Part shown: in pieces, positions 635 to 14,288 of the stretch
Layout of the letters: every line of letters starts with the position of its first letter
Position numbering within the stretch: the first letter of the stretch is position 1
Virus record (IMG/VR): IMGVR_UViG_3300035698_006929
Location: 1-27,196 of that record
Origin: a virus
DNA: 27,196 bases
Reading direction: 5' to 3' (one strand)
Translations under genes and position numbers: made by a program
The notes under the pieces: model-generated
What the model was told of the DNA's origin: nothing
The model's input: the letters and a program-made list of their open reading frames with translations, nothing else
Databases searched by the model: none

Positions 635-775
635 CCCTCGCTCATGACCACTGACCGACCACCTTATACTATACTATCTGGTAGTACCTTCTCTCTTATA
701 TATAAAAAGAACTACTTATCTATAGACCAGTACGACCGGCCGACTACAGACCTAGGATAGGAGGATAACCGATCT

Positions 776-1600
776 ATGAGCAAGGCAGGCAAGCAGCCAA
801 CCAGTCCTCCACCGGGCAAGGCGGTCAACTCTCTGGAGGTCCACGTACCAAGCCAGACACCCGATCATACACCCATCCCAAGCAATGACAAACCCCCTTT
901 GCAGGAGACCGATGGCGACGGCGCCCAACTGACAATAGGACCTCTCTTGACAATAGGCGATCGTCAGGCGCGGGCGCGTTGCCTGGAGATCCTCCGGGCC
1001 TTGGCCGAGCACCTCGGAGTGCACCGACTGGCGTTTGCACAGACCGGCGCCGATTGGATGGAGCTCGGTGGGATCCGTCACCGTTATCCCGAGTTTAATG
1101 AGACGTACACCCTGTTAAGGGATTGGGCGGCCGAATGGCGACTCCGGGCTGCGGACGACTCCACGTATGAGCGGGCCGTCGTCGGCTGGCTGGAGCCAGT
1201 CTATCGTAACGAGAGCGACGGGGATGGAGGATCGCATCCGGTCGTCGCCGGCTACGTCCGGAGGTACTCGGACAAGGCCCTGGAGCTGTACCTGCGCGCC
1301 TATCACGCGAGGTACAAGGAGCGTGGCGACGGCGCCGACCAGGCCAAGGGGTTTCAGTATGTGATCGTGATGCCGCCGCCGGCCCCCGCAGCCGGCCGGA
1401 TCCTGCCCGATCCCGGGCCCGCGACGGTCGAAATGGCATCCAAAGCGCATCCGGACGGGGGGGAGATCGCGGAAAAGGCCGCAAAACAAGGGGTTTCAGG
1501 TCGAGGGTCAGTGGATTGCGTATCCACTGACCCACCTCGACCGGCCTGCATACCAGGCACCGTCCGGTCTGAGAGCAGTGGGGATGGGGAGAGCGAGTGA
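776..1600 (+). CDS. terS: Terminase small subunit-like protein
   Basis: TerS recognises phage DNA and hands it to the TerL motor for packaging into the procapsid. Three things support the call. An N-terminal helical segment (about residues 62-120) has the helix-turn-helix layout of phage small terminases, ending in the 'peFn.ty' pattern. Residues 132-143 (ERAVVGWLEPVY) and 164-182 (YSDKALELYLRAYHARYKE) match the C-terminal pattern of the family, where a charged 'YSD..L..YL.A..P..Y' helix follows a variable loop. It also starts the late gene order. The first 55 residues are Pro-rich and probably disordered, and the C-terminal 70 are low-complexity. At 274 aa it is long for the family. The ATG follows AGGAGG by 11 bases. 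Its stop overlaps the next ATG (TGATG). The 3' end carries a strong inverted repeat. Assignment is by pattern, not search. Confidence 0.6.
   Translation: MSKAGKQPTSPPPGKAVNSLEVHVPSQTPDHTPIPSNDKPPLQETDGDGAQLTIGPLLTIGDRQARARCLEILRALAEHLGVHRLAFAQTGADWMELGGIRHRYPEFNETYTLLRDWAAEWRLRAADDSTYERAVVGWLEPVYRNESDGDGGSHPVVAGYVRRYSDKALELYLRAYHARYKERGDGADQAKGFQYVIVMPPPAPAAGRILPDPGPATVEMASKAHPDGGEIAEKAAKQGVSGRGSVDCVSTDPPRPACIPGTVRSESSGDGESE
930..957 (+). repeat. Two 10-bp direct repeats in terS
   Basis: TGACAATAGG occurs at 930-939 and again at 948-957, an 18-base period that encodes the LTIG..LTIG repeat near residues 52-60. Short repeats inside small-terminase genes can be packaging-recognition elements, but two copies in a coding region can also arise by slippage. 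Confidence 0.4.
1499..1542. repeat. 18-bp inverted repeat in the 3' end of terS
   Basis: GGTCGAGG (1499-1506) and GTCAGTGGAT (1507-1516) pair with ATCCACTGAC (1522-1531) and CCTCGACC (1535-1542). The loop is TGCGT (1517-1521), and a single 3-base bulge (CCA, 1532-1534) separates the two helices. All 18 pairs are Watson-Crick. It lies inside the reading frame near codons 242-256 of terS. There is no T tract after it, so it is not an ordinary terminator. A DNA or RNA recognition element, such as a packaging site, is the natural guess. Confidence 0.75.
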
Positions 1601-1776
1601 TGGCAGCAGCGCGAGAGCTGGGGGGGATTTACGATTCTGCTCAGAGACCCCCGGCCGGGACCACGCGGGCGGCGAGGGGGTACACTACCACCTATACCCC
1701 CTTCGTCCACGCCCGAGGCCTTCGCCCACTCATGTGGACCTGCCCTGTAATTTTTTTTTATCTGGAGGCAATGTGA
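1600..1776 (+). CDS. Small 58-aa hypothetical ORF coupled to terS
   Basis: The ATG at 1600 overlaps the terS stop (TGATG) and has GGGGAGAG just upstream. The frame runs to TGA at 1774-1776, overlapping the GTG start of the radical SAM gene. The product begins MAAARELGGIYDSAQRPP and ends in a hydrophobic CPVIFFYLEAM. I recognise no domain. The stop-start overlaps at both ends favour a real coupled ORF. The main oddity is a run of nine T (1751-1759) positioned as a U-UUU-UUU slippery heptamer; a -1 shift there would join this frame to the radical SAM frame. It could equally be untranslated spacer. Confidence 0.4.
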   Translation: MAAARELGGIYDSAQRPPAGTTRAARGYTTTYTPFVHARGLRPLMWTCPVIFFYLEAM

Positions 1777-2681
1777 ATTCTGTTTCCGTCGATGTATTTT
1801 CCTCAGATATATTGCGGGTATTTCCTCGTAGGATCAAGAACTCGACACCAGACGATTCTCAGGTACGCGTGGGTTTACCGACATGGTTTGACGAGGCAAG
1901 AGCCGTGATGATTTCCGTTTCGTTCACCTGGGACATTCTTGACGGCACCGTTGACAAGTTGTTGAGTGAATGGGATCGCGTTGCGCCGGTCGAGGTTGGC
2001 GGTCCAGCTTACGATGACGGTGGCGCTGAGTTTGTACCTGGGGCGTGGATCAAGAAAGGCTACGTCATCACATCGAGGGGATGCCCGAACAGCTGTTGGT
2101 TCTGCGATGCGTGGAAGCGCGAAGGTCACATCATGCGCGAGTTGCCGATACGTGATGGGTGTGATGTGTTGGACAGCAATCTTCTAGCGTGCTCATGGGA
2201 CCACTTTTGCGGCGTGATCGAGATGTTGAAGCGTCAAAAGGAGCCATCGAAGTTCACGGGCGGTCTTGAGCCTGCCAGATTGACTCGGGAGCACGTTGAG
2301 AAGCTGACCGAGTTGACCATCGAGCAGTTGTTCATGGCCTACGACACGCCTTCCGATTGGGAACCATTGCAGGATGCGGCGGCGCTTTTGGATGAGGCGG
2401 GACTGATAAGGCGCTGCGTCGACGGCACCGATCACCGGAAAGGCTGCTTTGTGCTATGCGGTTGGCCGCGTGACACCTTTTCGGAGGCTGACATGCGCAT
2501 TGCCCGCGTGATGTCTCTCGGGTTGCGTCCGTTCGCCAATGTTTACCGTGGAAGGGACGGGCTTCGCGACCCCGCGTGGGCACGTTGGGAGAGAATCAGG
2601 AAACGACCTGCACTTTTGGGCCACATATCGGCCCCTACCCCCAGAATTTTTTCAAAATCGAGTGGTGTTGAGAATGGTTGA
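1773..2681 (+). CDS. Phage radical SAM superfamily protein
   Basis: Radical SAM enzymes bind a 4Fe-4S cluster through CxxxCxxC and cleave S-adenosylmethionine to start radical chemistry. The motif is visible as Cys104, Cys108 and Cys111 in GCPNSCWFC, preceded by KKGYVITSR. The sequence resembles a phage-carried family whose members share an early 'FPRR.K..PDD' stretch, an 'SFTWD' segment, the Cys motif with 'REGHIMRELPI', 'DSNLLACS', 'LKRQK...FTGGLE', 'FMAYDTP' and 'FVLCGWP.DT'. All are present here. The substrate of that family is unknown to me. I chose GTG 1773 because GGAGG lies at 1764-1768 and family similarity begins shortly after; the frame is open further upstream but reads as non-protein there. 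The C-terminus after 'RKRPALLGHI' looks atypical and runs into the methylase fragment. Confidence 0.85.
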   Translation: MNSVSVDVFSSDILRVFPRRIKNSTPDDSQVRVGLPTWFDEARAVMISVSFTWDILDGTVDKLLSEWDRVAPVEVGGPAYDDGGAEFVPGAWIKKGYVITSRGCPNSCWFCDAWKREGHIMRELPIRDGCDVLDSNLLACSWDHFCGVIEMLKRQKEPSKFTGGLEPARLTREHVEKLTELTIEQLFMAYDTPSDWEPLQDAAALLDEAGLIRRCVDGTDHRKGCFVLCGWPRDTFSEADMRIARVMSLGLRPFANVYRGRDGLRDPAWARWERIRKRPALLGHISAPTPRIFSKSSGVENG

Positions 2682-2913
2682 CTTGTGCGCGCTGGTCACG
2701 ATGCCAGAGCACAACCTGATTTTGGACCCGTTCGCGGGAAGCGGCACGACGGGCGTTGCGTGCGCAGAACTTGGTTTGCCGTGCGTGCTGATCGAGAAGG
2801 ATGGTCATTCGGTAGAGATTGCAGGTGCCCGCGTGATGTGCGCGGAGTACATCGAACTGGCGAAGAAACGGACGTCGCAAATGGGGCTGTTCGCGCAGGG
2901 GAGTTCAAACTAA
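2674..2913 (+). pseudogene. C-terminal fragment of a DNA methyltransferase
   Basis: The 79-aa product carries the SAM-binding motif of beta-type N6-adenine/N4-cytosine methylases (LILDPFAGSGTTGVACAE) followed by the usual 'G.pcvliEkd....iAgaRv' strand-helix. The catalytic DPPY/SPPY motif and target-recognition part, which precede this segment in the family, are missing. I saw no such motif in the radical SAM gene upstream. The ATG at 2674 overlaps the radical SAM stop (2679-2681), so it would be translationally coupled, with only a weak GTTGAGA before it. Methylase-like sequence may begin a little upstream, around 2640, inside the radical SAM tail in this frame. That suggests a deletion or recombination junction. 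Either a remnant or a functional half-protein; catalysis alone is unlikely. Confidence 0.65.
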
Positions 2914-2922
2914 AGGAGCAGC

Positions 2923-3090
2923 ATGAAGAAGGCAGCATTCAGGTACGACATTGATGCGTTGGACGAAAAGAGCCGCAAGGTTTTCGAAAACAACCTTGGC
3001 AAAGAGTTGAGGAAGGCAGGGTTTTCATTCCAAGGATCTGGGTATGACCTGACAACCAAGGAGCGAGACATCACATGGACGAAGGCATGA
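2923..3090 (+). CDS. Small 55-aa hypothetical protein
   Basis: The ATG at 2923 follows AAGGAG (2913-2918), 10 bases after the preceding stop. The product starts MKKAAFRYDIDALDEKSRK, is highly charged and looks like a compact alpha/beta domain (a helical DEKSRKVFENNLGKELRKAG segment followed by short strands). No domain recognised. Its ribosome binding site and normal amino-acid composition make it a believable gene. It sits between the methylase fragment and the RNA ligase. Bases 3091-3145 behind it hold nothing but the next ribosome binding site. Confidence 0.6.
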   Translation: MKKAAFRYDIDALDEKSRKVFENNLGKELRKAGFSFQGSGYDLTTKERDITWTKA

Positions 3091-3145
3091 ACACCGTCTT
3101 GGGAACTGGTGGACTTACAGCACGTACTACAAGGAGTGATAGACC

Positions 3146-3799
3146 ATGAACGAGACAGAGTTTCAGGCATTTCCGAAGATCGCAAGGTACAGCCGGGAAG
3201 TGATCGTTACCGAGAAAATCGACGGCACGAATGCCCAAGTGATGGTGGTTGAAACCGATGGCTTCCCTTGCGAGGGGGCCAGCTCCGTATTCGAGCAAGA
3301 CGGATTGGCGCTGTTAGTCGGCAGCCGCAAGCGGTGGATCACGCCCGAAACCGACAATTTCGGGTTTGCCCGATGGGCGCGTGATAACGCCGAGGAATTG
3401 CTCACGCTCGGGCCGGGACGCCACTTCGGAGAATGGTGGGGGAGCGGGATTCAGCGCGGGTACGGGTTGGAGAATGGGGAGAAGCGGTTCAGCCTGTTCA
3501 ACGTCGTGCGCTGGTGCAAGCACGGTGACACGCCGCAACAGATTCCGTGTGGCGATCCGCGCACGGTCAAGATGCAAGACGTTCTCCCGGCCTGCGTTGG
3601 ATTGGTGCCCGTGTTGTGGCGCGGACTGTTTAACGACCTGGACGTGACGTGGATATTGGCTGACATTGCTAAATGGGGGAGTCAGGCGGCACCGCGATTC
3701 ATGCACCCAGAGGGGGTTGTCATCTTTCACGTTGCGGGCTGCGTGTGGTTCAAGAAGACGCTTGACCATGACGGCGAACCGAAATCGAAGCGGAGGTGA
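3146..3799 (+). CDS. RNA ligase-family nucleotidyltransferase
   Basis: ATP-dependent RNA ligases seal breaks in RNA through a covalent lysyl-AMP. The family motifs appear in order: motif I EKIDGTNA with nucleophile Lys24, a GSRKRWI segment at 59-65, motif III FGEW at 94-97, motif IV PEGVV at 188-192, and motif V around Lys203-Lys204. The length, 217 aa, is that of a minimal catalytic domain without accessory domains. The ATG follows AAGGAG (3131-3136) by nine bases. Phage RNA ligases commonly repair tRNAs cut by host anticodon nucleases. No kinase or phosphatase partner is visible here, so that role is an inference. It lies in the accessory block between terS and terL. Confidence 0.8.
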   Translation: MNETEFQAFPKIARYSREVIVTEKIDGTNAQVMVVETDGFPCEGASSVFEQDGLALLVGSRKRWITPETDNFGFARWARDNAEELLTLGPGRHFGEWWGSGIQRGYGLENGEKRFSLFNVVRWCKHGDTPQQIPCGDPRTVKMQDVLPACVGLVPVLWRGLFNDLDVTWILADIAKWGSQAAPRFMHPEGVVIFHVAGCVWFKKTLDHDGEPKSKRR

Positions 3800-3847
3800 C
3801 GTGGGGCGCCGCGCCGAGTCTACAAAGAGAGGACGTGAGAATCCAAA

Positions 3848-3900
3848 TCCCCCGGCCGTCGGAAGGGCTGCTTGCGGCACAAAGTACGGCGGTCGGGGGA
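3848..3900 (+). other. 13-bp GC-rich RNA hairpin before the ParB-like gene
   Basis: Bases 3848-3860 (TCCCCCGGCCGTC) pair with 3888-3900 (GGCGGTCGGGGGA) as RNA: 13 pairs, two of them G-U, with a 27-base loop. No T tract follows. It ends 11 bases before the AGGAG (3912-3916) of the next gene. The 124-base gap 3800-3923 otherwise holds no convincing gene. The hairpin could act in translation control, RNA processing or U-independent termination. Confidence 0.6.
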
Positions 3901-3923
3901 GCGGGGCCAACAGGAGAGACGAT

Positions 3924-4751
3924 ATGGACACACCGACACACTTCACGGATCAGATGATGATCGAGCAGCAACGCGAGATGGATGAAACCCAAAAGTTCCT
4001 GCAATCGTTGATTGGGGCGATCGTCGTCGTTCCGTCCCTGAAGCCGAGGATTGCGGGGTATGCCCCGACGCCGAAGGGGTGGGAGTACAAGATCACGGAG
4101 GTCGACGACCTGGGGCCGACGTCGATCGGCGGGAGGTTTGTCGGGATGCGAGCCATGGCATGGCGCCACAACGGGGAAAATGTCGTAGACCGGATGCGCG
4201 TTCCGGGGTTGATTGTGATGACCTCGTACACGCATGAGACGACTCGCAAGGAAGCCTTGGATCGGTGCGCGAAGAATATTGCCGTTCGGTTTGATGAAAC
4301 GCAAATGCGTGACCTGGATGTTCCGGATACATCTGGCCGCATTTGGACCGTGCGCGAGGACAGGACGGGTGTTTACAAGTCTTCGCCAAGCAGCGTGAAG
4401 GTCCCGTTCCGAAAAGAGTTTCTGGCCGACAACTTCTGTATTATCGACGATGATGCGTGGTCGATCCCGCGCCTGATCCAACTGGCCAAGGAAGCGAATC
4501 TCCAGCCGTTCGCCATCCCGCTCATTCACATCAACGTGGATATCAGTATGAACAGCGCGAGAACCATGATCGACCTCGTAGAACATGCGTACCGGATTGC
4601 GCATGCTGATCTGCAGTACCCGATCATCCTGTCACCGTTGGGCACCGTGCTTGACGGCTGGCACCGGATCATGCGGGCGATACTCGAAGAGAAGGAAACG
4701 ACCCTGGCAGTGCGGTTCGAGACGATGCCGCCGTGCGACAGTGCAGTGTAG
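3924..4751 (+). CDS. ParB-like (GxHR motif) domain protein
   Basis: The C-terminal part (about residues 195-275) resembles the ParB/sulfiredoxin fold: a run of beta strands with 'FAIPLIHINVD' then 'YPIILSPLGTVLDGWHRIMRAIL', where Asp244-Gly-Trp-His247-Arg248 corresponds to the conserved G-x-H/R-R nucleotide-binding motif. The first 190 residues are not recognised. The ATG at 3924 is chosen over the longer open frame because AGGAG (3912-3916) lies seven bases before it and the upstream translation is low-quality. Phage ParB-like proteins have been linked to DNA binding, nuclease and base-modification contexts. Nearby radical SAM and methylase pieces make nucleic-acid processing plausible, but no specific role can be read here. 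Confidence 0.6.
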   Translation: MDTPTHFTDQMMIEQQREMDETQKFLQSLIGAIVVVPSLKPRIAGYAPTPKGWEYKITEVDDLGPTSIGGRFVGMRAMAWRHNGENVVDRMRVPGLIVMTSYTHETTRKEALDRCAKNIAVRFDETQMRDLDVPDTSGRIWTVREDRTGVYKSSPSSVKVPFRKEFLADNFCIIDDDAWSIPRLIQLAKEANLQPFAIPLIHINVDISMNSARTMIDLVEHAYRIAHADLQYPIILSPLGTVLDGWHRIMRAILEEKETTLAVRFETMPPCDSAV

Positions 4752-4773
4752 ATCAACATAGAAGGGATTGGCC

Positions 4774-5223
4774 ATGCCATCACTGAATCAAGTAAACATC
4801 CTAGGGAACCTGACACGGGACCCGGACGTGCGAGTTCTGAGCAGCGGAACATCATGCTGCGATCTACGGATGGCAGTGAACGAGTCGTACCGGAACAAGG
4901 CGGGGGAGAAGAAGCAGGACACGGTTTTCGTGACCGTGACGGCCTGGGGGAAGCAGGCTGAAGCGTGCGGGAAGTACCTGGCCAAGGGGCGGTTGGTCCT
5001 GATCGAGGGGAAGCTGAAGTTCGACACGTGGGAGAAGGACGGGAAGAAGCAGTCGAAATTGACGGTCACTGCGCAGCGCATTCACTTCATGGGCGGGCGG
5101 GAAGAAGAAGAGTCGCAGGAGCGCGAACCGGCGCCCGCGGCAGGACCGGCACAGCAGGCCGCGGAGATCCCGCCGCCGGTCGTCGAAGGGGATGCAGAGG
5201 AAGAAGAGAACCTGCCGTTCTGA
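4774..5223 (+). CDS. ssb: Single-stranded DNA-binding protein
   Basis: SSB coats single-stranded DNA during replication and recombination. The 149-aa product shows the OB-fold pattern of bacterial and phage SSBs: N-terminal 'LNQVNILGNLTRDPDVR', 'FVTVTAWGKQAEACGKYLAKG', 'LVLIEGKLKFDTW' and 'KLTVTAQRIHFMGG'. A Pro/Ala/Glu-rich linker follows, then an acidic tip EEEENLPF, the partner-binding tail usually written DDDIPF. An in-frame TTG at 4768 exists, but the ATG at 4774 fits the AAGGG at 4762-4766 and the family start. A replication gene in the late region is slightly out of place and marks this block as a mixed accessory or middle-gene module. Confidence 0.93.
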   Translation: MPSLNQVNILGNLTRDPDVRVLSSGTSCCDLRMAVNESYRNKAGEKKQDTVFVTVTAWGKQAEACGKYLAKGRLVLIEGKLKFDTWEKDGKKQSKLTVTAQRIHFMGGREEEESQEREPAPAAGPAQQAAEIPPPVVEGDAEEEENLPF

Positions 5224-5254
5224 GGGGCGGGAGACAGTCTGAAAGGAGTGGTCG

Positions 5255-5617
5255 ATGGCAGACCAGCGACTCGAGATCCAGAAGTTGAAGGGTGAGGTAT
5301 CGCTCCAGTTGGAGCATATCGGCCACCTCGTACACCTGGCAAACGCTCAGGAGAGCGCCCTGAAACAGATCATGCTTCGCGCATCGTCCCAGCACGATGA
5401 GTTGAGGCTGATCCTCATGAAGGCAACGCGGAAGGCAAAGGAGACCTTCGGGGAGATTTGCCAAATCTGCGCGCCGTTCCTGCAGGAGATCGACGACCAG
5501 AACATGCCGGCCGATTTCAAGGCCCAGATCGAAACATACCAGGCCCGAATGAAGGGGATCCTAGCAGCGCGGGGGGAAGGAGAGTCCGATGGCGTTCAAG
5601 GTGAGGCTGGAGGGTGA
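5255..5617 (+). CDS. Hypothetical 120-aa coiled-coil protein
   Basis: No family recognised. The first 75 residues are almost entirely helical with heptad-like spacing (QKLKGEVSLQLEHIGHLVHLA...), suggesting a coiled coil or helical hairpin, followed by a second helical part (FKAQIETYQARMKGILAA). There is no membrane segment or signal. The ATG has AAAGGAG at 5242-5248. The 3' end overlaps the next gene by 29 bases. Location between ssb and terL suggests a small packaging- or replication-associated protein, but that is context only. Confidence 0.65.
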   Translation: MADQRLEIQKLKGEVSLQLEHIGHLVHLANAQESALKQIMLRASSQHDELRLILMKATRKAKETFGEICQICAPFLQEIDDQNMPADFKAQIETYQARMKGILAARGEGESDGVQGEAGG

Positions 5618-5780
5618 CAAGTACAGAGTGATCGACGCAACGACGGGGGAAGTGGCCCTGAACACAAAGACAGGGACCCCTCTTGACGGCGGCGGTCACG
5701 ACTTGAACCACGTTGACCGGGCCGATCGTCAGGCCGGCCACCTGAATGCGTGGGTCGAGAAGCAGCAGGCAGACGAGTAA
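5589..5780 (+). CDS. Hypothetical 63-aa protein
   Basis: A small protein beginning MAFKVRLEGDKYRVIDATTG, which looks like a beta hairpin followed by a loop and a short helix (ADRQAGHLNAWVEKQQ). It starts inside the preceding gene with a good AAGGAG (5577-5582) six bases before its ATG, which supports it being real despite the 29-base overlap. Function unknown. It ends 61 bases before terL, in a leader that folds strongly. Confidence 0.65.
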   Translation: MAFKVRLEGDKYRVIDATTGEVALNTKTGTPLDGGGHDLNHVDRADRQAGHLNAWVEKQQADE

Positions 5781-5814
5781 CATCTACGGGGGGCTTTGTA
5801 GGCCCGTGGCGCGA

Positions 5815-5845
5815 CCGTAGCCGCAACGAAAGGTAGCGGCTATGG
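5815..5845 (+). promoter_or_regulatory. Hairpin enclosing the terL start codon
   Basis: Bases 5815-5824 (CCGTAGCCGC) pair with 5836-5845 (GCGGCTATGG): ten pairs including one G-U. The 11-base loop (5825-5835) holds the AAAGG ribosome binding site, and the AUG (5842-5844) is fully inside the 3' strand of the stem. In RNA this would limit initiation unless melted by an upstream ribosome or bound by a regulator. Confidence 0.65.
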
Positions 5846-7410
5846 ATTTCAAGAGAAGTACTGAGTACAGCGACAGCGACAGCATCACGTATGAAGCCTC
5901 GCCAACATGCGCCCGGTTTCACATGTCCGACGCCGAGATCCGCGGCATTCGCGGAGTTGTAGGCAGTGGCAAATCGTCGGCTTGCTGCGTCGAGATGAAG
6001 CGCAAGGCCGAGGCCCAGCGGCCTTACAAGGGCGTCCGCAGGACAAAATGGGCCGTCATCCGTGAAACCTTCCCCCAACTCCGCGACACGACGATTCCCA
6101 CCTTCCTGAAGTGGGTCCCCGTCGAGCATCCATGGTTCATTGCCCAGGGGAGCAGCATGTCCCATTCCCCGCCGTATGTTGCCCACCTTCGGTACAACCT
6201 GGAAGATGGAACCAAGGTCGATGCGGAGTTCATCTTCCTGGCGATGCGCGACGACGCCGACGCTGAAAAGTTGAAGTCCCTGGAGATCACAGGGGCGTTC
6301 ATCAACGAGGCCGGCGCCGTCAAGAAGGGGCACATCAATATGGCCTACCAGCGGTCAGCGCGCTTCCCGCCCGTGGACAAGGGCGGATGTTCGTGGTTTG
6401 GCATCATCATGGACACGAACCCACCGGACGACGAATCATGGTGGTACGAAATGGAGGTCAAAGATACCCCGCCCAAGGCCGAGTTTTTCGTGCAACCCCC
6501 GGCGATCCTTGCCGTTCCGAAGAAAAGCCAGGCCGACGTTCAGCTCTACATCCCGAACACAGGGCAAGGGCCATACCCGCCGGCCGAGAACGTGAAACAC
6601 CTGATCAAGGGGTATGACTACTGGATGGATCAAATCCCCATGTTCAAGGAGTGGGGAATCAGGGTCTTTCTGATGGGCGAGTTCGGCACGAACCTATCCG
6701 GAACGCCGGTCTACTCGCAGTTTAATTCCTGCCACTTTACAAGCGAGCCCCTTGATGTCTACAGACAGCTCCCGCTTCTGATCGGCATTGACTTCGGTCG
6801 AACGCCGTGCGCCGTCTTCTGCCAGCTCTCGCCGAAGGGGCAGTTCAGAATCATAGACGAACTGACCACTGGCTACAAAGAATCAACGGACCCGCTCAGA
6901 ATGGGGATCCGAACCTTCGGACGATCTCTGCTGCTGCCGCATCTGAACACGAAGTATAACGGGATGTCCATTGTTGCGATCGGCGACCCGGCAGGCGGGT
7001 TCCACAACCAGATCAGCGACGAAGAGACATGCCTGCGCGAGCTGCACCAAATGGGCATTCCCTGCCAAGAGGCCAGGACGAACAGCCTATCAGCGCGTTT
7101 GGGGGCAGTCGAAGGGTTCATGACGACCATGATCGACGGTGGACCGGGGCTGATCGTGAGTGCCGTTGGGGCTCCAACCGTTCTGAAGGGTTTCCAAGGC
7201 GGTTATCGGTTCACGAAGAAGAAAACGACGGGTGACAATCAGGACCTCAAGAATGACCCGGACAAGGACAGTAGATTTTCGCACGTCCATGATGCGGTAC
7301 AATACGTGGCCATGTACGCCGAGTTCGGCATTGCCAAGTCCAAAAACATTACGGGTCGTGGTCCCATGATGGCCAGGCCGGTCATTCGCAAGAGGTCAAA
7401 AGCGTGGTAG
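5842..7410 (+). CDS. terL: Terminase large subunit
   Basis: TerL is the packaging motor: an N-terminal ATPase pumps DNA through the portal and a C-terminal RNase H-like nuclease cuts concatemers. Visible motifs: Walker A GVVGSGKS (residues 38-45, Lys44), a Walker B-like AFINEAG with catalytic Glu156, then nuclease acidic residues Asp317 (IGIDFG), Asp382 (IGDPAG) and Asp484 (HVHDAVQY). Length 522 aa is normal and the protein appears intact. It is separated from terS by about 4.2 kb of accessory genes, which is unusual because the two are commonly adjacent. Its ATG is inside a 10-bp hairpin with the ribosome binding site in the loop. It is followed by a probable noncoding RNA and then the portal gene. 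Confidence 0.93.
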   Translation: MDFKRSTEYSDSDSITYEASPTCARFHMSDAEIRGIRGVVGSGKSSACCVEMKRKAEAQRPYKGVRRTKWAVIRETFPQLRDTTIPTFLKWVPVEHPWFIAQGSSMSHSPPYVAHLRYNLEDGTKVDAEFIFLAMRDDADAEKLKSLEITGAFINEAGAVKKGHINMAYQRSARFPPVDKGGCSWFGIIMDTNPPDDESWWYEMEVKDTPPKAEFFVQPPAILAVPKKSQADVQLYIPNTGQGPYPPAENVKHLIKGYDYWMDQIPMFKEWGIRVFLMGEFGTNLSGTPVYSQFNSCHFTSEPLDVYRQLPLLIGIDFGRTPCAVFCQLSPKGQFRIIDELTTGYKESTDPLRMGIRTFGRSLLLPHLNTKYNGMSIVAIGDPAGGFHNQISDEETCLRELHQMGIPCQEARTNSLSARLGAVEGFMTTMIDGGPGLIVSAVGAPTVLKGFQGGYRFTKKKTTGDNQDLKNDPDKDSRFSHVHDAVQYVAMYAEFGIAKSKNITGRGPMMARPVIRKRSKAW

Positions 7411-7447
7411 TCCGCAACCGAACCCAACGGAAAGTGACGAAATAGGC

Positions 7448-7476
7448 TTGACTTTTCGCGCAGAATCGTGTAGAGG
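7448..7476 (+). promoter_or_regulatory. Candidate promoter for the terL-portal RNA
   Basis: TTGACT (7448-7453), exactly 17 bases, TAGAGG (7471-7476). The -35 box matches five of six bases; the -10 box is partial. Transcription would begin near 7481-7484, at the 5' strand of the closing helix of the structured region. The leftward promoter at 546-574 has the same shape (TTGACG-N17-CAGAGT). Confidence 0.5.
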
Positions 7477-7480
7477 TAGC

Positions 7481-7644
7481 ATTTGCAATCATCGAGGTAT
7501 GCAGCCGAGTTGCATCCACGATGGGAGGAATCATGTAATACAGAAGTGAATAGCTTCGGGCGAAGACTGGGGACCGCGCCTCTCCGGTCGATGCAAATCA
7601 AGGACGGCTGTCAGGGGCCTTACCTCTTGGCAGCCGTCCTTTTT
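7481..7644 (+). ncRNA. Probable structured noncoding RNA between terL and portal
   Basis: This 250-base gap has no convincing protein gene but folds well. ATTTGCA (7481-7487) pairs with TGCAAAT (7592-7598) as a closing helix. Inside are three hairpins. One spans 7491-7522: ATCG/CGAT, an A-A mismatch, GG/CC, a bulged T, ATGCA/TGCAT and a 7-base loop. The second is CTTC-GGGC-GAAG at 7554-7565. The third pairs 7565-7573 with 7581-7589 (nine pairs, two G-U). A terminator hairpin follows at 7600-7640. A promoter-like sequence sits at 7448-7476. Between the first two hairpins, GGGAGG precedes ATG-TAA (7533-7538). The closing helix and terminator do not share bases, so both can form together, as in a free-standing small RNA. 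A regulatory leader of the portal gene is the alternative. I do not recognise a known family. Confidence 0.6.
7600..7644 (+). terminator. Intrinsic terminator upstream of portal
   Basis: AAGGACGGCTG (7600-7610) pairs perfectly with CAGCCGTCCTT (7631-7641). The stem can extend inward by a few pairs, and T5 runs at 7640-7644. This is the best-formed intrinsic terminator in the window. It sits only 16 bases before the portal ATG and leaves the portal ribosome binding site (GGAG, 7652-7655) free. Confidence 0.85.
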
Positions 7645-7660
7645 GCCTTTTGGAGAGTCT

Positions 7661-9685
7661 ATGTCGTCAACGGGTATTGTTCCGAACAACATGAGCAGGC
7701 CTGGCGTCCCATACGCTACGCCGGCCGAATTGGAACGAAAAGAGGCGGAAGAGGCCACGCTCCGCGAGGAATCCCGCCAACGCAACAGCCCCGTCTTAAC
7801 CCCCCTTCTGGCGCATTGCCTCGATTCATGGTCGCGAAACCTCCGGTACAAGGAAACGACCGGCATCGACACCCAAATGCTGAAGAACCTTCGGCAGATC
7901 AACGGCGACTACGAGCCTGACATTCTGGCCGACATTCGAGCCGAGGGCCACTCCGAGGCGTTTTTGCTGATCACGGCCATGAAGACACGCGCCGCCTTGG
8001 CGTGGTTCCTCGACGTTCTCTCCAACGAGCACGAGAAAGCCTGGTCGACTCGCCCGACGCCCATTCCGGACATGCCGCCCGAAGTGATGGAACAGGTCAT
8101 CGAGCGCGCATCCATGGACATAGAGCAGTATCTCCAGGGCGAAGAGGGGCGCACGGTCACTCCACAAGAGGTTGCCGCATACGCGAAACAGCTCAAGGAA
8201 GACGTGGAGCAGGAGATCCGCGACGAGGCCAAGTCCCGGGCGATCCGCATGGAGCGCAAGGTCGACGACCAACTCAAGGAAGGCGGCTTCAACGAGGCGT
8301 TCCTGTTGTACGTGGAGAATCTTGTCCAGTTGAAGGCCGGCTTCCTCAAAGGCCCCATTCAGCGCAACGTGTCGTCCATGGCCTATGCGAACAATGATGG
8401 TCGCACTCAGGCCGTAGTGAAAGGCGCGATCAAGTCCACCTACGAATCTCCGAGCCCATTCGACATGTTCCCGGCGCCGGGGGCAACATCATGTCAGCAG
8501 GGCGACCTCTGGGAGCGTGTGAAATTCTTCCCGAAAGACCTCGCCGCGATGAAAGGCATCGAGGGGTCTTCTTTTAACGACGCCGCAATCGACCTTGTAC
8601 TCGAGCGGTACGGAAAATCCGGTTTTCGCGTGAGAACCACCGCCGACCCAAGCCGCGAGCAGCAGCAGGACCAGGGGGCCGACCGCGAAGCCTGGGGCAC
8701 GATCGAAGGGCTCGAGGGGTGGCTATCGGTGATGGGCAAGACCCTCATCGGCGAGGGGATGGATCACGACGACAAGGGCAACAGGATCAGCCCCACGCGC
8801 CATTACGAGATCAACGTCATCCTGATCGGCACCTACTTCATCTTCAACGCCTTCAATCCGCACCCTATTGGAGAGCGGCCATACTCGCATTGCGGCTGGC
8901 GAAAGGTCAGTGGCTCGTTCTGGTACAAGGGGGTACCTGAGTGTATCCCAGACGTTCAGATGATGGCGAACGGCGCCGTTAGGGCCATGGCGAACAACAT
9001 GGGTTTGGCGAGCGGGCCAGGGATCATCTACAACGACATCAACCGACTTGCAATCGGGCAGGATCCGACCGCGATCAGCCCCCTTGCCGTCTACCAGTTC
9101 ATCAATTCCGGCGGCAATAGTCAGCTCAAGCCGATGGAGACCATCGACATCAAATCCAACGCCGCGGAGCTGCTTGCGATCATCCAAGAGTTCTCCAAGA
9201 TGGCCGACGAGCATTCCGGCATCCCGAGCTACGAGCATGGGAACGGATCACTTGCCGGAGCTGGCCGGACCATGGGCGGGCTCCAAATGCTCATGACCAG
9301 CGCGGCCCGCAGCCTCAAGCTCTCGCTTCTCAGGTCAGACCAGCAGGCCCTCCGTCCAACGGTCGAACGTCAGATCGTCCACAACATGCTCTACGACCCC
9401 GACGAGTCGATCAAGGGCGACCTGGAACTCTACGCAACCGGCGTACTGGCAAAGATCAACAAGGAGGCAATGACGGCGCGCAGGATCGAGTACTTGAACG
9501 CTACCGGCAATCCGACCGACATCATGATTATGGGTGTCAAAAAGCGCGCGAGGCTCCAGGACGAGGTAGCCGAAACTCTTGAAATGCGCTTGGGCGAGTT
9601 CAGCCGATCGGAAGAAGAGTACGAGGAAGTCGAAACAAGGTTCCAAGAGCAGCAGCAGCAGAAAACAGCGGCCGCGGTCGCGTAA
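7661..9685 (+). CDS. Portal protein
   Basis: The portal forms the dodecameric ring through which TerL pumps DNA and to which the neck attaches. The 674-aa product follows terL and precedes scaffold and coat. It contains an internal segment typical of large podovirus-type portals: 'SGIPSYEHGNG...AGRTMGGLQMLMTSAARSLKLSLL' around residues 522-562, preceded by long helices. Charged helical stretches lie near residues 130-200, and a Glu/Gln-rich tail ends the protein. An in-frame TTG upstream overlaps the terminator; ATG 7661 is chosen because GGAG (7652-7655) precedes it and the upstream bases are the terminator stem. Expression must survive the terminator through readthrough or a promoter not seen. 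Confidence 0.85.
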   Translation: MSSTGIVPNNMSRPGVPYATPAELERKEAEEATLREESRQRNSPVLTPLLAHCLDSWSRNLRYKETTGIDTQMLKNLRQINGDYEPDILADIRAEGHSEAFLLITAMKTRAALAWFLDVLSNEHEKAWSTRPTPIPDMPPEVMEQVIERASMDIEQYLQGEEGRTVTPQEVAAYAKQLKEDVEQEIRDEAKSRAIRMERKVDDQLKEGGFNEAFLLYVENLVQLKAGFLKGPIQRNVSSMAYANNDGRTQAVVKGAIKSTYESPSPFDMFPAPGATSCQQGDLWERVKFFPKDLAAMKGIEGSSFNDAAIDLVLERYGKSGFRVRTTADPSREQQQDQGADREAWGTIEGLEGWLSVMGKTLIGEGMDHDDKGNRISPTRHYEINVILIGTYFIFNAFNPHPIGERPYSHCGWRKVSGSFWYKGVPECIPDVQMMANGAVRAMANNMGLASGPGIIYNDINRLAIGQDPTAISPLAVYQFINSGGNSQLKPMETIDIKSNAAELLAIIQEFSKMADEHSGIPSYEHGNGSLAGAGRTMGGLQMLMTSAARSLKLSLLRSDQQALRPTVERQIVHNMLYDPDESIKGDLELYATGVLAKINKEAMTARRIEYLNATGNPTDIMIMGVKKRARLQDEVAETLEMRLGEFSRSEEEYEEVETRFQEQQQQKTAAAVA

Positions 9686-9699
9686 CGGAGGAAAGCACG

Positions 9700-10335
9700 A
9701 TGAAGAAGTGGCTCAGAGAAAGTGGTTACAACAAGGCAATCGCGTTCGGGTGTCTGGTGATTCTGGTCCTTGTCGGCTGGATGGTGATCCCCGCAGTGGC
9801 TGCGATCCTCGAGGATGCTCGGTTCGGGACGCTTCACGTCGCCAGGACGACTACCCTGGTTGGCGCGCTGGACGTGGCGGCCATTACGTGCGACAGCGTG
9901 GCCAGCGCGGGGGCTATCAGTGGCACGACTATCAGCGGCACCACGCTCGAGGCGAGCGGTACTCTCACCGTGACCGGCGATGTTACGAACTACGGCAACC
10001 TCACCGTTGACGGCACTCTCTCTGCGTATGCTCTGGGCGAGAACATTATTGCCCCACCCGCTAATACCACAAACGGTCACGTCATAGCACTGGCCGGAAT
10101 AATGGTCAGGCTTGACTCTACCGGCAATACTACCAATCTAACCAACACGGTGACGCTTGCGAATCTGGCGAGTGGTGCGACTGGTATGTTCTACATCATC
10201 AACACTGGATCAACCAACTCGCTGGCCATTTCGCAGGCCGGTACGTTCAAGTCACCGGCGATCGCGTTGGCACCGTATGAGGCGGCAGTGATACTCGCGC
10301 CCGTCAGCAATGCGTTTTACGCCGTAGACTTCTAA
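9700..10335 (+). CDS. Membrane-tagged beta-repeat protein, possible head fibre
   Basis: The 211-aa product begins with a basic segment and a strong hydrophobic stretch (AIAFGCLVILVLVGWMVIPAVAA, about residues 13-35; a signal anchor, or a signal peptide cut near VIPAVA). It then has short Thr/Gly/Ser-rich beta repeats (TLHVARTTTLVGALDVAA, GAISGTTISGTTLEASGTLTV) of the kind seen in phage fibres and decoration proteins, and a C-terminal beta domain. The ATG follows GGAGG (9687-9691) by eight bases. Placed between portal and scaffold, it would normally be a virion component, but the N-terminal membrane signal is odd for that. Function not established. Confidence 0.6.
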   Translation: MKKWLRESGYNKAIAFGCLVILVLVGWMVIPAVAAILEDARFGTLHVARTTTLVGALDVAAITCDSVASAGAISGTTISGTTLEASGTLTVTGDVTNYGNLTVDGTLSAYALGENIIAPPANTTNGHVIALAGIMVRLDSTGNTTNLTNTVTLANLASGATGMFYIINTGSTNSLAISQAGTFKSPAIALAPYEAAVILAPVSNAFYAVDF

Positions 10336-10344
10336 CCATTCATA

Positions 10345-10375
10345 GGCGGGGCTCGGCACTACTCCGAGCCCCGCC
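10345..10375 (+). other. 12-bp GC-rich intergenic hairpin
   Basis: GGCGGGGCTCGG (10345-10356) pairs perfectly with CCGAGCCCCGCC (10364-10375) around a 7-base loop, starting nine bases after the preceding stop codon. AAAAGG follows, so there is no U tract on the plus strand, nor on the minus strand. A smaller hairpin CACCGC/GCGGTG follows at 10403-10421. It could stabilise the mRNA 3' end or terminate without a U tail. Confidence 0.7.
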
Positions 10376-10435
10376 AAAAGGAAACGACAATCTTTGGTTC
10401 ATCACCGCTTGGCCGGCGGTGGATGGCATTCGCAG

Positions 10436-10484
10436 AAGAGGGGTGGTCCGGCACCGGAACTGACGGATCACCCCTCTTTCTGTC
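10436..10484 (+). terminator. Probable intrinsic terminator
   Basis: Bases 10436-10450 pair with 10464-10478 (15 pairs, one G-U; AAGAGGGG against CCCCTCTT at the base) around a 13-base loop. A T-rich tail TTTCTGTCT overlaps and follows the stem. It ends just before the ribosome binding site of the 92-aa gene (AGGAG, 10486-10490), the same arrangement as the terminator in front of portal. Confidence 0.7.
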
Positions 10485-10495
10485 TAGGAGACAAG

Positions 10496-10774
10496 GTGCG
10501 AGATCCGAAAGAAAGAACCGAGCAGCTAGAGCAGGTCATGAAGTCCCTGGAGGTGCTGAAGGAGAACCAGCACTTCATGAACTTCGTCTTCTACCTGACG
10601 GACGAGCTCGTAGATCAGCGGGAGCGCAATGACGTGTTGCAGGGCGTGGAAATGGCATGGGGGCAGGGAGAGGCACAGCGCCTCAACAGGACTTTAACGA
10701 TGGTGGACGATAATCTGACGAACCTTGTCAAGATCAAGGCTCGAAGGATCCGTTCAGCAAACAGATACAGGTGA
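10496..10774 (+). CDS. Hypothetical 92-aa helical protein
   Basis: The GTG at 10496 is chosen because AGGAG lies at 10486-10490, five bases before it, while the longer open frame runs back through the terminator hairpin. The product is almost wholly helical and charged (TEQLEQVMKSLEVLKENQHFMNFVFYLTDELVDQRERNDVLQG), with a basic C-terminus (KIKARRIRSANRYR). No family recognised. Its place directly before the scaffold gene suggests a small head-assembly factor. A GTCAGG/CCTGAC hairpin (10780-10805) lies just after its stop. Confidence 0.6.
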   Translation: MRDPKERTEQLEQVMKSLEVLKENQHFMNFVFYLTDELVDQRERNDVLQGVEMAWGQGEAQRLNRTLTMVDDNLTNLVKIKARRIRSANRYR

Positions 10775-10779
10775 ACATC

Positions 10780-10805
10780 GTCAGGACACCAGGAATGGCC
10801 CTGAC
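10780..10805 (+). other. Small intergenic hairpin before scaffold
   Basis: GTCAGG (10780-10785) pairs with CCTGAC (10800-10805) across a 14-base loop. It is short, without a T tract, and is one of several intergenic hairpins in this operon. The 70-base gap holds no other feature apart from GGGGAA before the scaffold ATG. Confidence 0.35.
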
Positions 10806-10844
10806 ACGAAGCGCATACCCGGAAGGGCGCGCAAGGGGAACTCG

Positions 10845-11846
10845 ATGAAGGATGGTCTACCAGACGCAGTCGCAGACGCAGCAGACGCATCAGACGTGGC
10901 ACTCGACGCCGCGGTTGCCGAACAGCAGAAGCGACACGCCGAAGGGATTGCAGCGAGCAGTGATACCGACGCTTTACCGCCGGCCCCGGCCCCCGCAGCC
11001 CCAGCACCGGAGAATGAGGGAAGGATCAGCGAACTGGAAGCGCGACTCGCCGCCGAACAGCAGCGGGTGCGGTCACTGCAAGGGAGGATCGACAGCCAAG
11101 GCCCGACCATGGCTGCCCAAATCTCGGAACTGAAGGATACCGTAAAGGCCCTTCAGGCAGACTTGACCCAGGCGAAGAAGGTCCCCGCGCATTTGCGCAA
11201 CCTGTCAGCGGAAGAGCGGAAGATGTTGTCAGACGACGGCGACCTTTCGATAGAAGTCAGACAGGCGAAGGGATACACGGATGAGGCGAAGGAACACTTC
11301 GACGCGAAGATCGCAGCCATGGAACAACGGCAGACGGAATCCGATCGCGCCAGGGAAGCGGAGGCCATCAAATCAGAGGCCAATGCCTACAAAGACCGTT
11401 TCTTCGCGAAGCTCGAGGTCATTGCGCCCGGGGCCACGGCTCTGGATGCAAACCCCGTCTTCCGTGCATGGCTCCCGACTCCCGACCCAGACAGCCTTAC
11501 CGGTGCCACCTTCGAAGCAAAGGCGCAGGACGCCTACGCCCGGGGTGACATCAAGGCAGTTAAGGCAGTCACCGACGTATTCTACGCCACGGACCCCGGG
11601 AGGCGAATCCAGTCGGATCTCGCTGCCCAGGTCAAGCCGTCGAATGCCCCTGGTAACGAACCCCCGGTGGAGCAGAAAGGCAACTGGTTCACTGAAGACG
11701 CCATCGCCGAGTTCTACCACTATCAGAACCTTAGGAGACCGGTCCAAGGCCGTGACGGCAAGGACCTGACCCCGGAAGAAATGAAGAAGTTGGAAAACGA
11801 TATCGAGGACGCAGTAGCGAACGACAGGGTCCGCGTAGGGCGTTAG
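10845..11846 (+). CDS. Capsid scaffolding protein
   Basis: Scaffolding proteins template procapsid assembly and leave before or during DNA packaging. This 333-aa product lies directly before the coat gene and has the expected build: an acidic Ala/Pro-rich start, a long coiled coil (about residues 55-115, ISELEARLAAEQQRVRSL...), a helical middle rich in Lys/Glu/Ala, and a C-terminal ordered region with 'NPVFRAWL', 'KAVTDVFYATDPGRRIQSDL' and a charged terminal helix. An in-frame start lies upstream at 10725, but ATG 10845 has a GGGGAA ribosome binding site and the usual acidic start. Assignment rests on position and composition rather than a diagnostic motif. Confidence 0.65.
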   Translation: MKDGLPDAVADAADASDVALDAAVAEQQKRHAEGIAASSDTDALPPAPAPAAPAPENEGRISELEARLAAEQQRVRSLQGRIDSQGPTMAAQISELKDTVKALQADLTQAKKVPAHLRNLSAEERKMLSDDGDLSIEVRQAKGYTDEAKEHFDAKIAAMEQRQTESDRAREAEAIKSEANAYKDRFFAKLEVIAPGATALDANPVFRAWLPTPDPDSLTGATFEAKAQDAYARGDIKAVKAVTDVFYATDPGRRIQSDLAAQVKPSNAPGNEPPVEQKGNWFTEDAIAEFYHYQNLRRPVQGRDGKDLTPEEMKKLENDIEDAVANDRVRVGR

Positions 11847-11853
11847 CCCTTTT
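11837..11853 (+). terminator. Weak terminator-like hairpin over the scaffold stop
   Basis: AGGGC (11837-11841) pairs with GCCCT (11846-11850) around a GTTA loop, followed by TTTT. With five pairs it is weak and would at most attenuate. The stop codon of scaffold lies in the loop and stem. The rest of the gap to 11941 holds the coat ribosome binding site and nothing else clear. Confidence 0.3.
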
Positions 11854-11941
11854 CATTTGGGCCGTTGCTGACCGAACGCGACGGGTTTTCGCGGGATAGG
11901 TCCGCTGCTGCGATCTGAGATTTTAGAAAGAGAGGCAAATC

Positions 11942-12883
11942 ATGGCCGTCTATCCAGTCGCAGCAGGAAAGAGTGACATTGGCTCGACCACGATGGGTTA
12001 CACCCCGACGATTTACTCGGGGAAACTCGTCAAGAAGCTGTATGCGAATACAGTCTTCGGTGCCGTAGCCAACACGGACTACGAAGGAGAGATCAAGTCG
12101 TTCGGTGAATCGGTGAAAATCCGTTCGCTGCCGAACATTTCGATCCGCCGGTACGCCAAGGGGCAGAACCTTGTTCCCGAACAGCCGAAATCAACGGCGC
12201 TCACGCTCAACATCGACAAGGGCTACTACTGGGCCTTCATCGACGAGGATGTCGAACGCGCGCAGACGGACCTGAAGAACTACGTCGATCTCTGGACCGA
12301 CGTTGCAGCCCGTCAGCTTCAAATCGCCATCGACGCCGACGTGCTCCAGAACGTGTACGCCGACGCGAGCTCGTACAACCAGGGCCTCACGGCTGGACTG
12401 ATCTCGGGTGACATCGACCTGGGCGTGGATGCTGGAGTGTCCGTCGAACTCACGGTCGACAACGTGATCAACAAGATCGTGCAGTGCGGCCAAGTCCTCG
12501 ACGAACAGAACGTGCCCCCCGAGGGGCGCTGGATGATCGTTCCGGCGTGGGTGCATACGCTGCTCCTGACGTCCGACCTCAAGGCCGCGTTCCTGACCGG
12601 GGATGCAACCTCGCCGATGAGGCATGGCCGCGTGGGCATGATCGACACGTTCACCATCTACCGCTCGAACCAGTTGGGTACGAGCTCGGACACGGTAGGC
12701 GACACGACGACGCACATCATGTTCGGTACGAACCACGCGATCACCTTCGCCACGCAGTTGGTGAAGAACGAGCAAGCTGCCAACCCGTTCGGGTTCGGCA
12801 ACATCCACAAGGGTCTTCAGGTGTACGGCTACAAGGTCGTGCTGCCCGAGGCGCTGGGTTGGCTGTACGCCAAGAAGGGGTAA
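11942..12883 (+). CDS. Major capsid protein (P22 coat-like)
   Basis: This 313-aa protein is the likely shell subunit with an HK97-type fold. Supporting features are its position after scaffold and a run of motifs common in P22-type coat proteins. These are an N-terminal helix followed by 'NTDYEGEIKSFGESVKIRSLP', 'LTLNIDKGYYWAFIDEDVERAQTD' (the extended arm and spine helix region), 'VDLWTDVAARQLQIAIDADVLQ', 'GRWMIVPAWVHTLLL', and 'HGRVGMIDTFTIYRSNQL'. The ATG follows AGAGG by six bases. Two hairpins follow its stop, which may protect the mRNA of this highly expressed gene. Confidence 0.85.
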   Translation: MAVYPVAAGKSDIGSTTMGYTPTIYSGKLVKKLYANTVFGAVANTDYEGEIKSFGESVKIRSLPNISIRRYAKGQNLVPEQPKSTALTLNIDKGYYWAFIDEDVERAQTDLKNYVDLWTDVAARQLQIAIDADVLQNVYADASSYNQGLTAGLISGDIDLGVDAGVSVELTVDNVINKIVQCGQVLDEQNVPPEGRWMIVPAWVHTLLLTSDLKAAFLTGDATSPMRHGRVGMIDTFTIYRSNQLGTSSDTVGDTTTHIMFGTNHAITFATQLVKNEQAANPFGFGNIHKGLQVYGYKVVLPEALGWLYAKKG

Positions 12884-12928
12884 TCGACGGTTCGGGGAGG
12901 ACCGTCGAGTGACGGTTCTCCGCACCGT
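12884..12928 (+). other. Paired hairpins after the coat gene
   Basis: Immediately after the coat stop, TCGACGGT (12884-12891) pairs perfectly with ACCGTCGA (12901-12908) around a 9-base loop. A second stem, ACGGT/ACCGT, follows at 12912-12928. The GACGGT/ACCGT core is shared, so alternative pairings are possible. No T tract follows. Likely an mRNA 3' stabiliser or partial terminator. Confidence 0.6.
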
Positions 12929-12956
12929 GTAACACGAAATAAAGGAGGATAGTCAA

Positions 12957-13472
12957 ATGGCTATTGCAGCAGATTCAGTAGTGAGCGTGACCAGGGGTGC
13001 TTTTCTCCCCTATCTGAAAAGCGGTTTGATCGAAGCAGAGATCAACCTGCTGACCGCCTCTTCGGAACTCACCGCCCAGGGCGACGGCGAACTGGCTGCG
13101 GGGGACGTGATCACCGTCTTTTCGCTTCCCGCAGGGACGCTGATCATCGCGGCCGGCATCGAGGTGACGACCCTCGTTACCGGCTCCACGGCCCTCGTTC
13201 TCGATCTCGGGACGGGTGACGACGACGACCAGTTTCTCGACGGATCGGACGGGACGAACCCGTTCGATATCGGGTCAAGCGGGTCGCAAAAGGACGTGGG
13301 CACGTATTCGGAGCCCTCGGCGTCGGTTACGACCACCCTCGCGGGTATGCCGAAGATGCTGAGCGCGGCCGACACGCTCGACATCACGGTGCAGGGGATC
13401 ACGGGTACCCTGTCGGCCGGCGTGGTTCGTGTGTGGGCGTTGATCGCCGATGTCGACGGCCTGGAAGGATAG
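12957..13472 (+). CDS. Capsid decoration or head-associated protein
   Basis: The 171-aa product looks all-beta and acidic, with 'AAGDVITVFSLPAGTLIIAAGIEVTTLV' and 'LVLDLGTGDDDDQFLDGSD', a pattern found in phage proteins encoded directly after the coat gene that are annotated as virion or head proteins. No enzyme motif. The ATG follows AAAGGAGG by eight bases, one of the strongest ribosome binding sites here, which suggests high expression as expected for a shell component. The exact role (decoration versus head fibre) cannot be read from sequence. Confidence 0.55.
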   Translation: MAIAADSVVSVTRGAFLPYLKSGLIEAEINLLTASSELTAQGDGELAAGDVITVFSLPAGTLIIAAGIEVTTLVTGSTALVLDLGTGDDDDQFLDGSDGTNPFDIGSSGSQKDVGTYSEPSASVTTTLAGMPKMLSAADTLDITVQGITGTLSAGVVRVWALIADVDGLEG

Positions 13473-13491
13473 GCGGTCAAGAAATCGAACG

Positions 13492-13519
13492 CACCCCGGG
13501 GCCTTCGGGTCCCGAGGTG
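13492..13519 (+). other. UUCG-capped intergenic hairpin
   Basis: CACC (13492-13495) and CGGGGCC (13497-13503) pair with GGTCCCG (13508-13514) and GGTG (13516-13519). There is one C-A mismatch, one G-U pair and a TTCG tetraloop (13504-13507) closed by C-G. This is an extra-stable RNA hairpin with no U tract after it, ending about 20 bases before the next ribosome binding site. Confidence 0.7.
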
Positions 13520-13550
13520 ATTCGGAACGACACAAAACAGGAGAAATCCT

Positions 13551-14231
13551 ATGTCGATGGATATTGGAGAGAGACTCGGACGCGAGGCAGAACCGGATGT
13601 CGTGGCCAGGGTAAGCGCCCAGGCACGGATGGGCATTCTGTTCCTTCGCAAGAAGGATACGGATCATACATTCGGATGGACGCCCGTGCTGGCCCAGCGT
13701 GACGACATGCTTCCCTGCACGAAGACCCTGCACGAAAAGCTGTGCGCAAAGCGCGCGGTGGAAGGTGCGTTGCGGTCGAAGAACCTGAATGCGATTCGCG
13801 TAACGGTCGCACGCCAAACCGAAGCGGAAGCGAAGTTTATCGAGGAACAGGAGAAGGTTCAGGCCGAACTTCTGGCGAACGAAGAGGCCATTGTTTCCCG
13901 TGAAGCCGCCGAAGCCGAGGCCGCAGAGAAGGCCGCAGACGAAGCAGCCGCCGAAGCCGCCAAGGTCAAGGCCGAAGCCGCAGACGCCGCGGAGAACGAG
14001 GCCGCAGAGAAAGGGGACGAACCTTCCCCCGAACTGGACGTCACGTCGGACGTCACGTCCCCGCCGCCCGCTGCTTCCCCGCCGCCCGCTGCCGAGTCGC
14101 CTGTTACCGCCGCCCTCCTTGTCGGGGAGAGCAAAGCGGACCTCGTCATCAGGGCGCAGGCGATGGGCCTGTCCGTTACCGGAAGCAAGGGCGACCTGGT
14201 CGGACGCATTCTGAGCCAACAGACCGCGTGA
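13551..14231 (+). CDS. Head-region protein with C-terminal SAP domain
   Basis: The 226-aa product has three parts. Residues 1-95 form an unrecognised domain (GILFLRKKDTDHTFGWTPVLAQRDDM is distinctive). Residues 96-160 are an Ala/Glu/Lys helix, probably a long coiled coil. A Pro-rich linker near 170-185 leads to residues 191-226, which read as a SAP motif: SKADLVIRAQAMGLSV..SKGDLVGRIL, two helices separated by a Gly. SAP domains bind DNA in many proteins. The ATG has AGGAG (13539-13543) seven bases upstream. Placed between the decoration-like gene and the adaptor, it could be a minor head or neck protein touching DNA; that is inference. Confidence 0.6.
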   Translation: MSMDIGERLGREAEPDVVARVSAQARMGILFLRKKDTDHTFGWTPVLAQRDDMLPCTKTLHEKLCAKRAVEGALRSKNLNAIRVTVARQTEAEAKFIEEQEKVQAELLANEEAIVSREAAEAEAAEKAADEAAAEAAKVKAEAADAAENEAAEKGDEPSPELDVTSDVTSPPPAASPPPAAESPVTAALLVGESKADLVIRAQAMGLSVTGSKGDLVGRILSQQTA

Positions 14232-14241
14232 TGAAAACCTG

Positions 14242-14271
14242 CCGGTGCCATGGTTCATCCCGTGGCGCCGG
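14242..14271 (+). other. 9-bp intergenic hairpin before the adaptor gene
   Basis: CCGGTGCCA (14242-14250) pairs with TGGCGCCGG (14263-14271) with one U-G pair and a 12-base loop. It starts ten bases after the preceding stop and ends before the adaptor ribosome binding site. No T tract. Confidence 0.55.
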
Positions 14272-14288
14272 GTAACAAGAGGGTGGCT

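Follow-up and report, generated by a model that had tools for sequence, protein, structure and literature searches.

An IMG/VR viral contig, analysed here over 27,196 nucleotides (the window), carries an RNA element between the gene for the terminase large subunit (terL), which ends at 7410, and the portal gene, which starts at 7661. This element is a real, evolutionarily conserved folded RNA and not a product of chance. Its conserved core (7558-7648) forms an almost perfect four-way junction of a closing helix (P1), two arms (H3 and H4) and a terminator hairpin (T), and the element is present in 13 distinct contigs: the window, L091, L094, L017, L170, L375, L376, L377, L457, L459, L460, L482 and L502. 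The family is unmatched in Rfam 15, shows strong covariation, and comes from uncultured phages in which it stands at the gate of the packaging and structural genes. It most likely sets how strongly the capsid genes are expressed. The literature that we searched holds no description of this element.

A conserved four-way junction between terL and portal

Using PHROGs and Pfam, we assigned TerL, the portal, the major capsid protein, the terminase small subunit, SSB and an RNA ligase in the window. The element lies where the SSB/ligase/terminase block meets the structural block (Table 1), in a gap that, as the initial annotation had stated, holds no convincing protein gene. Elsewhere in the window, a Radical-SAM-like protein (phrog_9298) and, after it, a DNA-methylase-like frame adjoin the terminase small subunit (1578-2913), and a protein of the tail region (20478-21902) has repeated TNVTSLYDTWQGCSALTTAPAVNAL-like units, similar to BspA-type leucine-rich repeats.

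Table 1. Features of the terL-portal region and of one further site in the window (H1 and H2 are the first two hairpins of the initial annotation)
Feature	Position	Strand	Basis and remarks
terL, terminase large subunit	5842..7410	+	PHROG phrog_2, E=2e-19; closes the upstream SSB / RNA-ligase / terminase block
sigma70-like promoter TTGACT-N17-TAGAGG	7448..7476	+	sequence (TTGACT 7448-7453, 17 nt, TAGAGG 7471-7476); similar layout in 11 relatives
Hairpin H1	7489..7524	+	fold; window-specific, no counterpart recognised in relatives
Mini-ORF, MQPSCIHDGRNHVIQK then stop	7499..7549	+	ends 8 nt ahead of P1 and 15 nt ahead of H3
Alternative start-stop ATGTAA	7533-7538	+	preceded by GGGAGG 7523-7528
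Hairpin H2	7543..7557	+	fold; not conserved; many relatives too short here for a hairpin
P1 5' strand GGGCGAA	7558..7564	+	RNAalifold, P1 test in members, covariation, core fold
Arm H3, 9 bp	7565..7589	+	covariation in relatives
Arm H4, small hairpin GAU-GCAA-AUC	7590..7599	+	fold, relatives
Arm T, 18-bp terminator hairpin	7600..7641	+	fold
Terminator U-tract (T-run, T5)	7640..7644	+	sequence
P1 3' strand UUUGCCU (U-tract and following bases)	7642..7648	+	RNAalifold, P1 test, covariation
Portal gene (head-tail adaptor)	7661..9685	+	phrog_332, E=6.5e-25; ribosome site GGAG 7652-7655; ATG 12 nt past P1
Possible second, weaker core copy	10382..10488	+	21.9-22.1 bits; upstream of gene starting GTG 10496

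The nearer relatives were located by alignment-based searches with TerL, the portal and the capsid protein; a single-protein TerL search and a DNA search of phage records did not find close relatives. The relatives used are contigs from metagenomes, and probable assembly errors occur in some, one being an in-frame stop in the terL of L170. Wherever both flanks are present the order is terL, element, portal, with the portal ATG 6-17 nt past P1, and the 3' strand of P1 abuts the portal ribosome site.

Across the members the 5' part of the element is variable, and the 3' part has the same shape, with the order P1 5' strand, H3, H4, T and P1 3' strand. H3 measures 7-11 bp, T about 15-19 bp and H4 2-5 bp, the loop of H4 being often of the GNRA type. 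Shape is kept and sequence is not: the P1 strands pair as GGGCGAA:UUUGCCU in the window, GCAAUA:UAUUGC in L376, GGCAAA:UUUGCC in L460, CGCCAAGA:UUUUGGCG in L482 and UGACGAGG:UCUUGUCG in L094. P1 is present in all 13 members (combined P 6e-13). It was first proposed by RNAalifold, which recovered the same four helices without structure input, and isolated member cores fold as an almost linker-free four-way junction. The stretch 7470-7650 folds far better than its shuffles (z -4.75), and the window core reaches -52.6 kcal/mol (z -5.95, matched by 0 of 200 shuffles).

In the 10 aligned members, covariation is 0.963, compared with 0.302 (sd 0.030) in shuffled and at most 0.21 in slid controls. Pairs changed on both sides number 29 of 35, a count that leans towards structure because the alignment, in which MAFFT had put H3 out of register, was registered by hand and N-padded. 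In the relatives, H3 shows two-sided changes at all 8 counted pairs, with 95.8% of cells paired. Given the bias of hand registration, we cite the slid controls, the structure-free RNAalifold result and searches with held-out members, which are a fair test for such an alignment. Covariance model R1, built from nine relatives with the window excluded, found the window at 38.7 bits (E=2.3e-9), and held-out L377, L170 and L460 were recovered at E 1e-7 to 4e-12, all of these E-values being rough. The initial annotation had suggested a discrete structured RNA with its own promoter and terminator, to be checked by conservation and covariation; the check was run and passed, and at the level of sequence the 13 homologous loci with strong covariation support the suggestion.

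Its secondary structure needs redrawing. All three hairpins that it placed within a 7-bp helix (7481-7487 with 7592-7598) exist in the window, but the first two are not conserved, being restricted to the window or a few members. The 7-bp helix is present too, but 6% of shuffles reach it and 10 of 11 relatives are without a counterpart of more than 5 bp; its 3' strand falls in H4 once the conserved fold is drawn. What the members share as closing helix is P1, which includes the U-tract. The statement that closing helix and terminator use different bases thus holds for the 7-bp helix and fails for P1, since the 3' strand of P1 takes in the U-tract. By the same sharing, P1 would be complete in the terminated RNA.

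The promoter-like site is where the initial annotation had put it. Its -10 hexamer is poor, and the consensus list of the promoter tool omits the site; the layout TTGAC-N17-TA is found again in relatives. The strong T5 terminator is likewise borne out as by far the strongest terminator-like site within 1-20,000. Termination may nevertheless be weak, since the U-tracts of the members have just 4-7 U of 8. In 10 of the 12 terminators tested, a reverse complement of the 5' arm stands between this arm and the 3' arm, which gives a nested hairpin (GUAUUGG-GG-CCAAUAC in L375); random loops achieve such nesting in 0.03-4%. The terminators of the window and L091 are without this inner hairpin, which could slow or delay terminator formation where present. 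A terminator of nested design (TGTGGGACCCACACTCACG) is also seen in a more distant phage (L049, 2731-2806), directly before the next large ORF, possibly the portal.

Neither the window nor its relatives gave an Rfam match at the gathering threshold, and relaxed thresholds returned nothing credible, the low-threshold matches looking like chance. The tRNA/tmRNA search found none. A GGACCGCG stretch in H3 is reminiscent of a T-box, but it is found in the window only and this candidate was rejected. Scanning for the H4 pattern returned the known members and terminator-like chance matches only, and second copies in other genomes were none above chance, with one strong copy per record. The weaker site at 10382 of the window lies between a signal-peptide-like ORF (9700-10335) and the GTG 10496 gene, and the syntenic place in L482 (3341-3446) carries a comparable site whose terminator is nested. 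Directly 3' of the ORF ending at 10335 is a GGCGGGGCTCGG-loop-CCGAGCCCCGCC hairpin (10350-10375), followed by AAAAGG and no T-run. Bacterial genomes give model matches of 18-27 bits, scores that terminators alone seem to reach, so we do not claim L049, L616 or window 10382 as members. The nearest capsid relatives in named genomes (53-55%) are in Desulfovibrionales, Desulfobacula and Desulfobacterium MAGs; no credible copy of the element turned up in a search of ten genomes, among them these.

Natural losses and the roles they leave

All carriers fall in one clade of the portal tree (100/98), and non-carriers nest inside it. L372 and L373 (sister to L094) and L466 (within the L091/L375/L502 group) are without H3, H4 and T and keep a promoter directly before the portal; the TerL and portal of L372 and L373 are 55-70% identical to those of L094. 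The simplest reading of this nesting is that the RNA was lost at least twice. These natural deletions indicate that the promoter belongs to the portal, and that the RNA is dispensable and no essential packaging component.

This bears directly on a packaging RNA of the phi29 type, joining motor to portal, which the initial annotation had raised. The location between the motor and portal genes suits this idea, as does a compact structured RNA of roughly the size generally known for pRNA. However, at least two lineages lost the element and still have TerL and portal from the same families, a terminator is built into the four-way junction, and Rfam returned no match at the gathering threshold. We regard a packaging role as highly improbable.

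The region could also be an ordinary boundary, in which an insulating hairpin separates two transcription blocks, the promoter is unrelated, and H3 and H4 are incidental stabilisers. Many more distant relatives do have a simple terminator between terL and portal: when 254 portal loci were checked at an intermediate stage for a terminator just before the portal, other lineages had a short simple one or none. In cultured phages with a related TerL (about 30-36% identity), terL and portal are neighbours, have small genes between them or are arranged differently, and the element was absent from all those inspected. Plain insulation is nonetheless unlikely, as H3, H4 and P1 covary in register, the promoter precedes the terminator, and the space left before the portal is too small for another. 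This order is the opposite of a plain terminator-then-promoter boundary such as that of L480.

A third possibility is that the terminated RNA of about 165 nt is itself functional, acting in trans as a structured small RNA. P1 would guard its 3' end, the junction would bind a phage or host protein as decoy or scaffold, and the portal would be expressed through leak or from elsewhere. The element has its own promoter and terminator, its shape is conserved and its sequence is not, and a closing helix made with the U-tract would be whole once the RNA has terminated. The predicted probability of P1 averages about 0.73 for the released RNA, compared with about 0.56 in the longer mRNA (0.86 and 0.63 in the window). 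There is also a precedent in Shiga-toxin phages, in which the pR'-tR' by-product became the sRNA StxS (PMC7873438). Against a role in trans, the position of the element never varies, its single strong copy per record has no counterpart elsewhere, the conserved mini-ORF spacing is left unexplained, and in L459 the core has no promoter next to it and follows two small ORFs within a transcription unit. We consider this role possible but doubtful. The second small ORF of L459 (region 2135-2560) ends in SAMTY before its stop, and several other mini-ORFs end in Tyr or Phe and the stop.

A mini-ORF and a putative leader of the structural genes

An ATG-initiated ORF has its stop 15-18 nt before H3 in 9 of the 13 members (0.95 expected, 0 of 2000 shuffles), although this interval was picked after inspection; with a wider interval of 8-34 nt the count is 12 of 13 (5.3-5.4 expected, P about 5e-4 or less). 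In the same nine members the stop is 7-12 nt before P1. A ribosome-site-like motif accompanies the mini-ORF in 7 of the 13 (0.98 expected). The peptide sequence is not conserved.

Because of this spacing, and because a promoter at the same place drives the portal in the relatives that lack the RNA, we prefer a cis-acting leader of the portal or late structural operon, that is, an attenuator or late-operon gate with mini-ORF coupling. The initial annotation had listed a portal-gene leader among its alternatives, and this is now the best fit, the promoter staying before the portal where the RNA is lost. We judge the leader probable, if not strongly so.

In such a leader, a late promoter directly after terL would start a transcript that carries a translated mini-ORF and then the cloverleaf RNA. 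T and the U-tract would form an intrinsic terminator, so that much transcription would stop there by default, yielding a stable RNA of about 165 nt with its 3' end locked in P1. Basal read-through or a putative antitermination factor would let polymerase pass, and the portal, scaffold and capsid genes would then be expressed. In the read-through mRNA, P1 would bring the mini-ORF stop next to the portal ribosome site, which would favour translational coupling.

Regulated read-through is a prediction of this reading. No conserved antiterminator pairing between the upstream RNA and the terminator arms was found (mean z +0.48 and -0.02), and a switch would therefore depend on a factor; the window proteins tested gave no match to antiterminator families, and the record may be a fragment. 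Further points against the leader are the incomplete U-tracts and the behaviour of P1, which forms better once the RNA is released than within the longer mRNA, as would also be expected of a free RNA. In the full fold of the window leader plus portal, the minimum-energy structure uses other pairs.

A more specific proposal, which we hold quite unlikely, is a prokaryotic counterpart of ribosome shunting. The mini-ORF would end against P1 and ribosomes would re-initiate at the adjacent portal site, while the same cloverleaf, holding the terminator, would gate both transcription and translation.

If the leader reading is true, the U-tract has a second use as closing strand of the four-way junction, next to the ribosome site of the following gene, a compact coupling of termination, RNA stability and translation.

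Comparison with known systems

Like phi29 pRNA, an essential motor component that binds the portal/ATPase in the procapsid, the element is a small phage RNA near packaging genes, but its fold differs, it is dispensable and it has a terminator built in. With bacterial attenuators, leader-peptide systems and riboswitches it shares a mini-ORF leader and an intrinsic terminator before the gene to be controlled. Unlike these, it has no mutually exclusive antiterminator, its peptide is unconserved and no Rfam riboswitch matches; the sole alternative pairing to the terminator is the nested inner hairpin inside T, absent in the window.

The putRNA of HK022 antiterminates by RNA alone, binding the beta' zinc-binding domain. 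It measures about 70 nt, has two long stem-loops and works on terminators that lie downstream (PMC9378689). It and the element are both structured nascent RNAs with abutting stem-loops near a promoter and terminators; in the element, H4 has 3-5 bp, and the fold, closed by P1, takes in the terminator. In RTBV and RTSV, a short uORF stops 7-8 nt short of a stable basal helix, beyond which lies a long ORF (PMC5902531). The likeness to the ribosome-shunt leaders of plant pararetroviruses (CaMV, RTBV) and of RTSV is in geometry only (stop 7-12 nt before P1 in 9 of 13, portal ATG 6-17 nt past P1). Those systems use eukaryotic scanning ribosomes, whereas a Shine-Dalgarno system would be used here, and the two are not homologous.

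In lambdoid phages, the late promoter pR', a short leader and the intrinsic terminator tR' precede the late genes, and Q acts by antitermination. We identified no Q-binding site, and no Q gene among the window proteins scanned, in a record that may be a fragment. Unlike the lambdoid gate, the element lies between terL and portal and has a conserved four-way junction and a mini-ORF. Read from sequence signals, the two are alike in having a promoter, a short leader and a terminator at the border of the structural genes; a short RNA is the default product of the lambdoid gate (PMC7873438) and the predicted one of the element.
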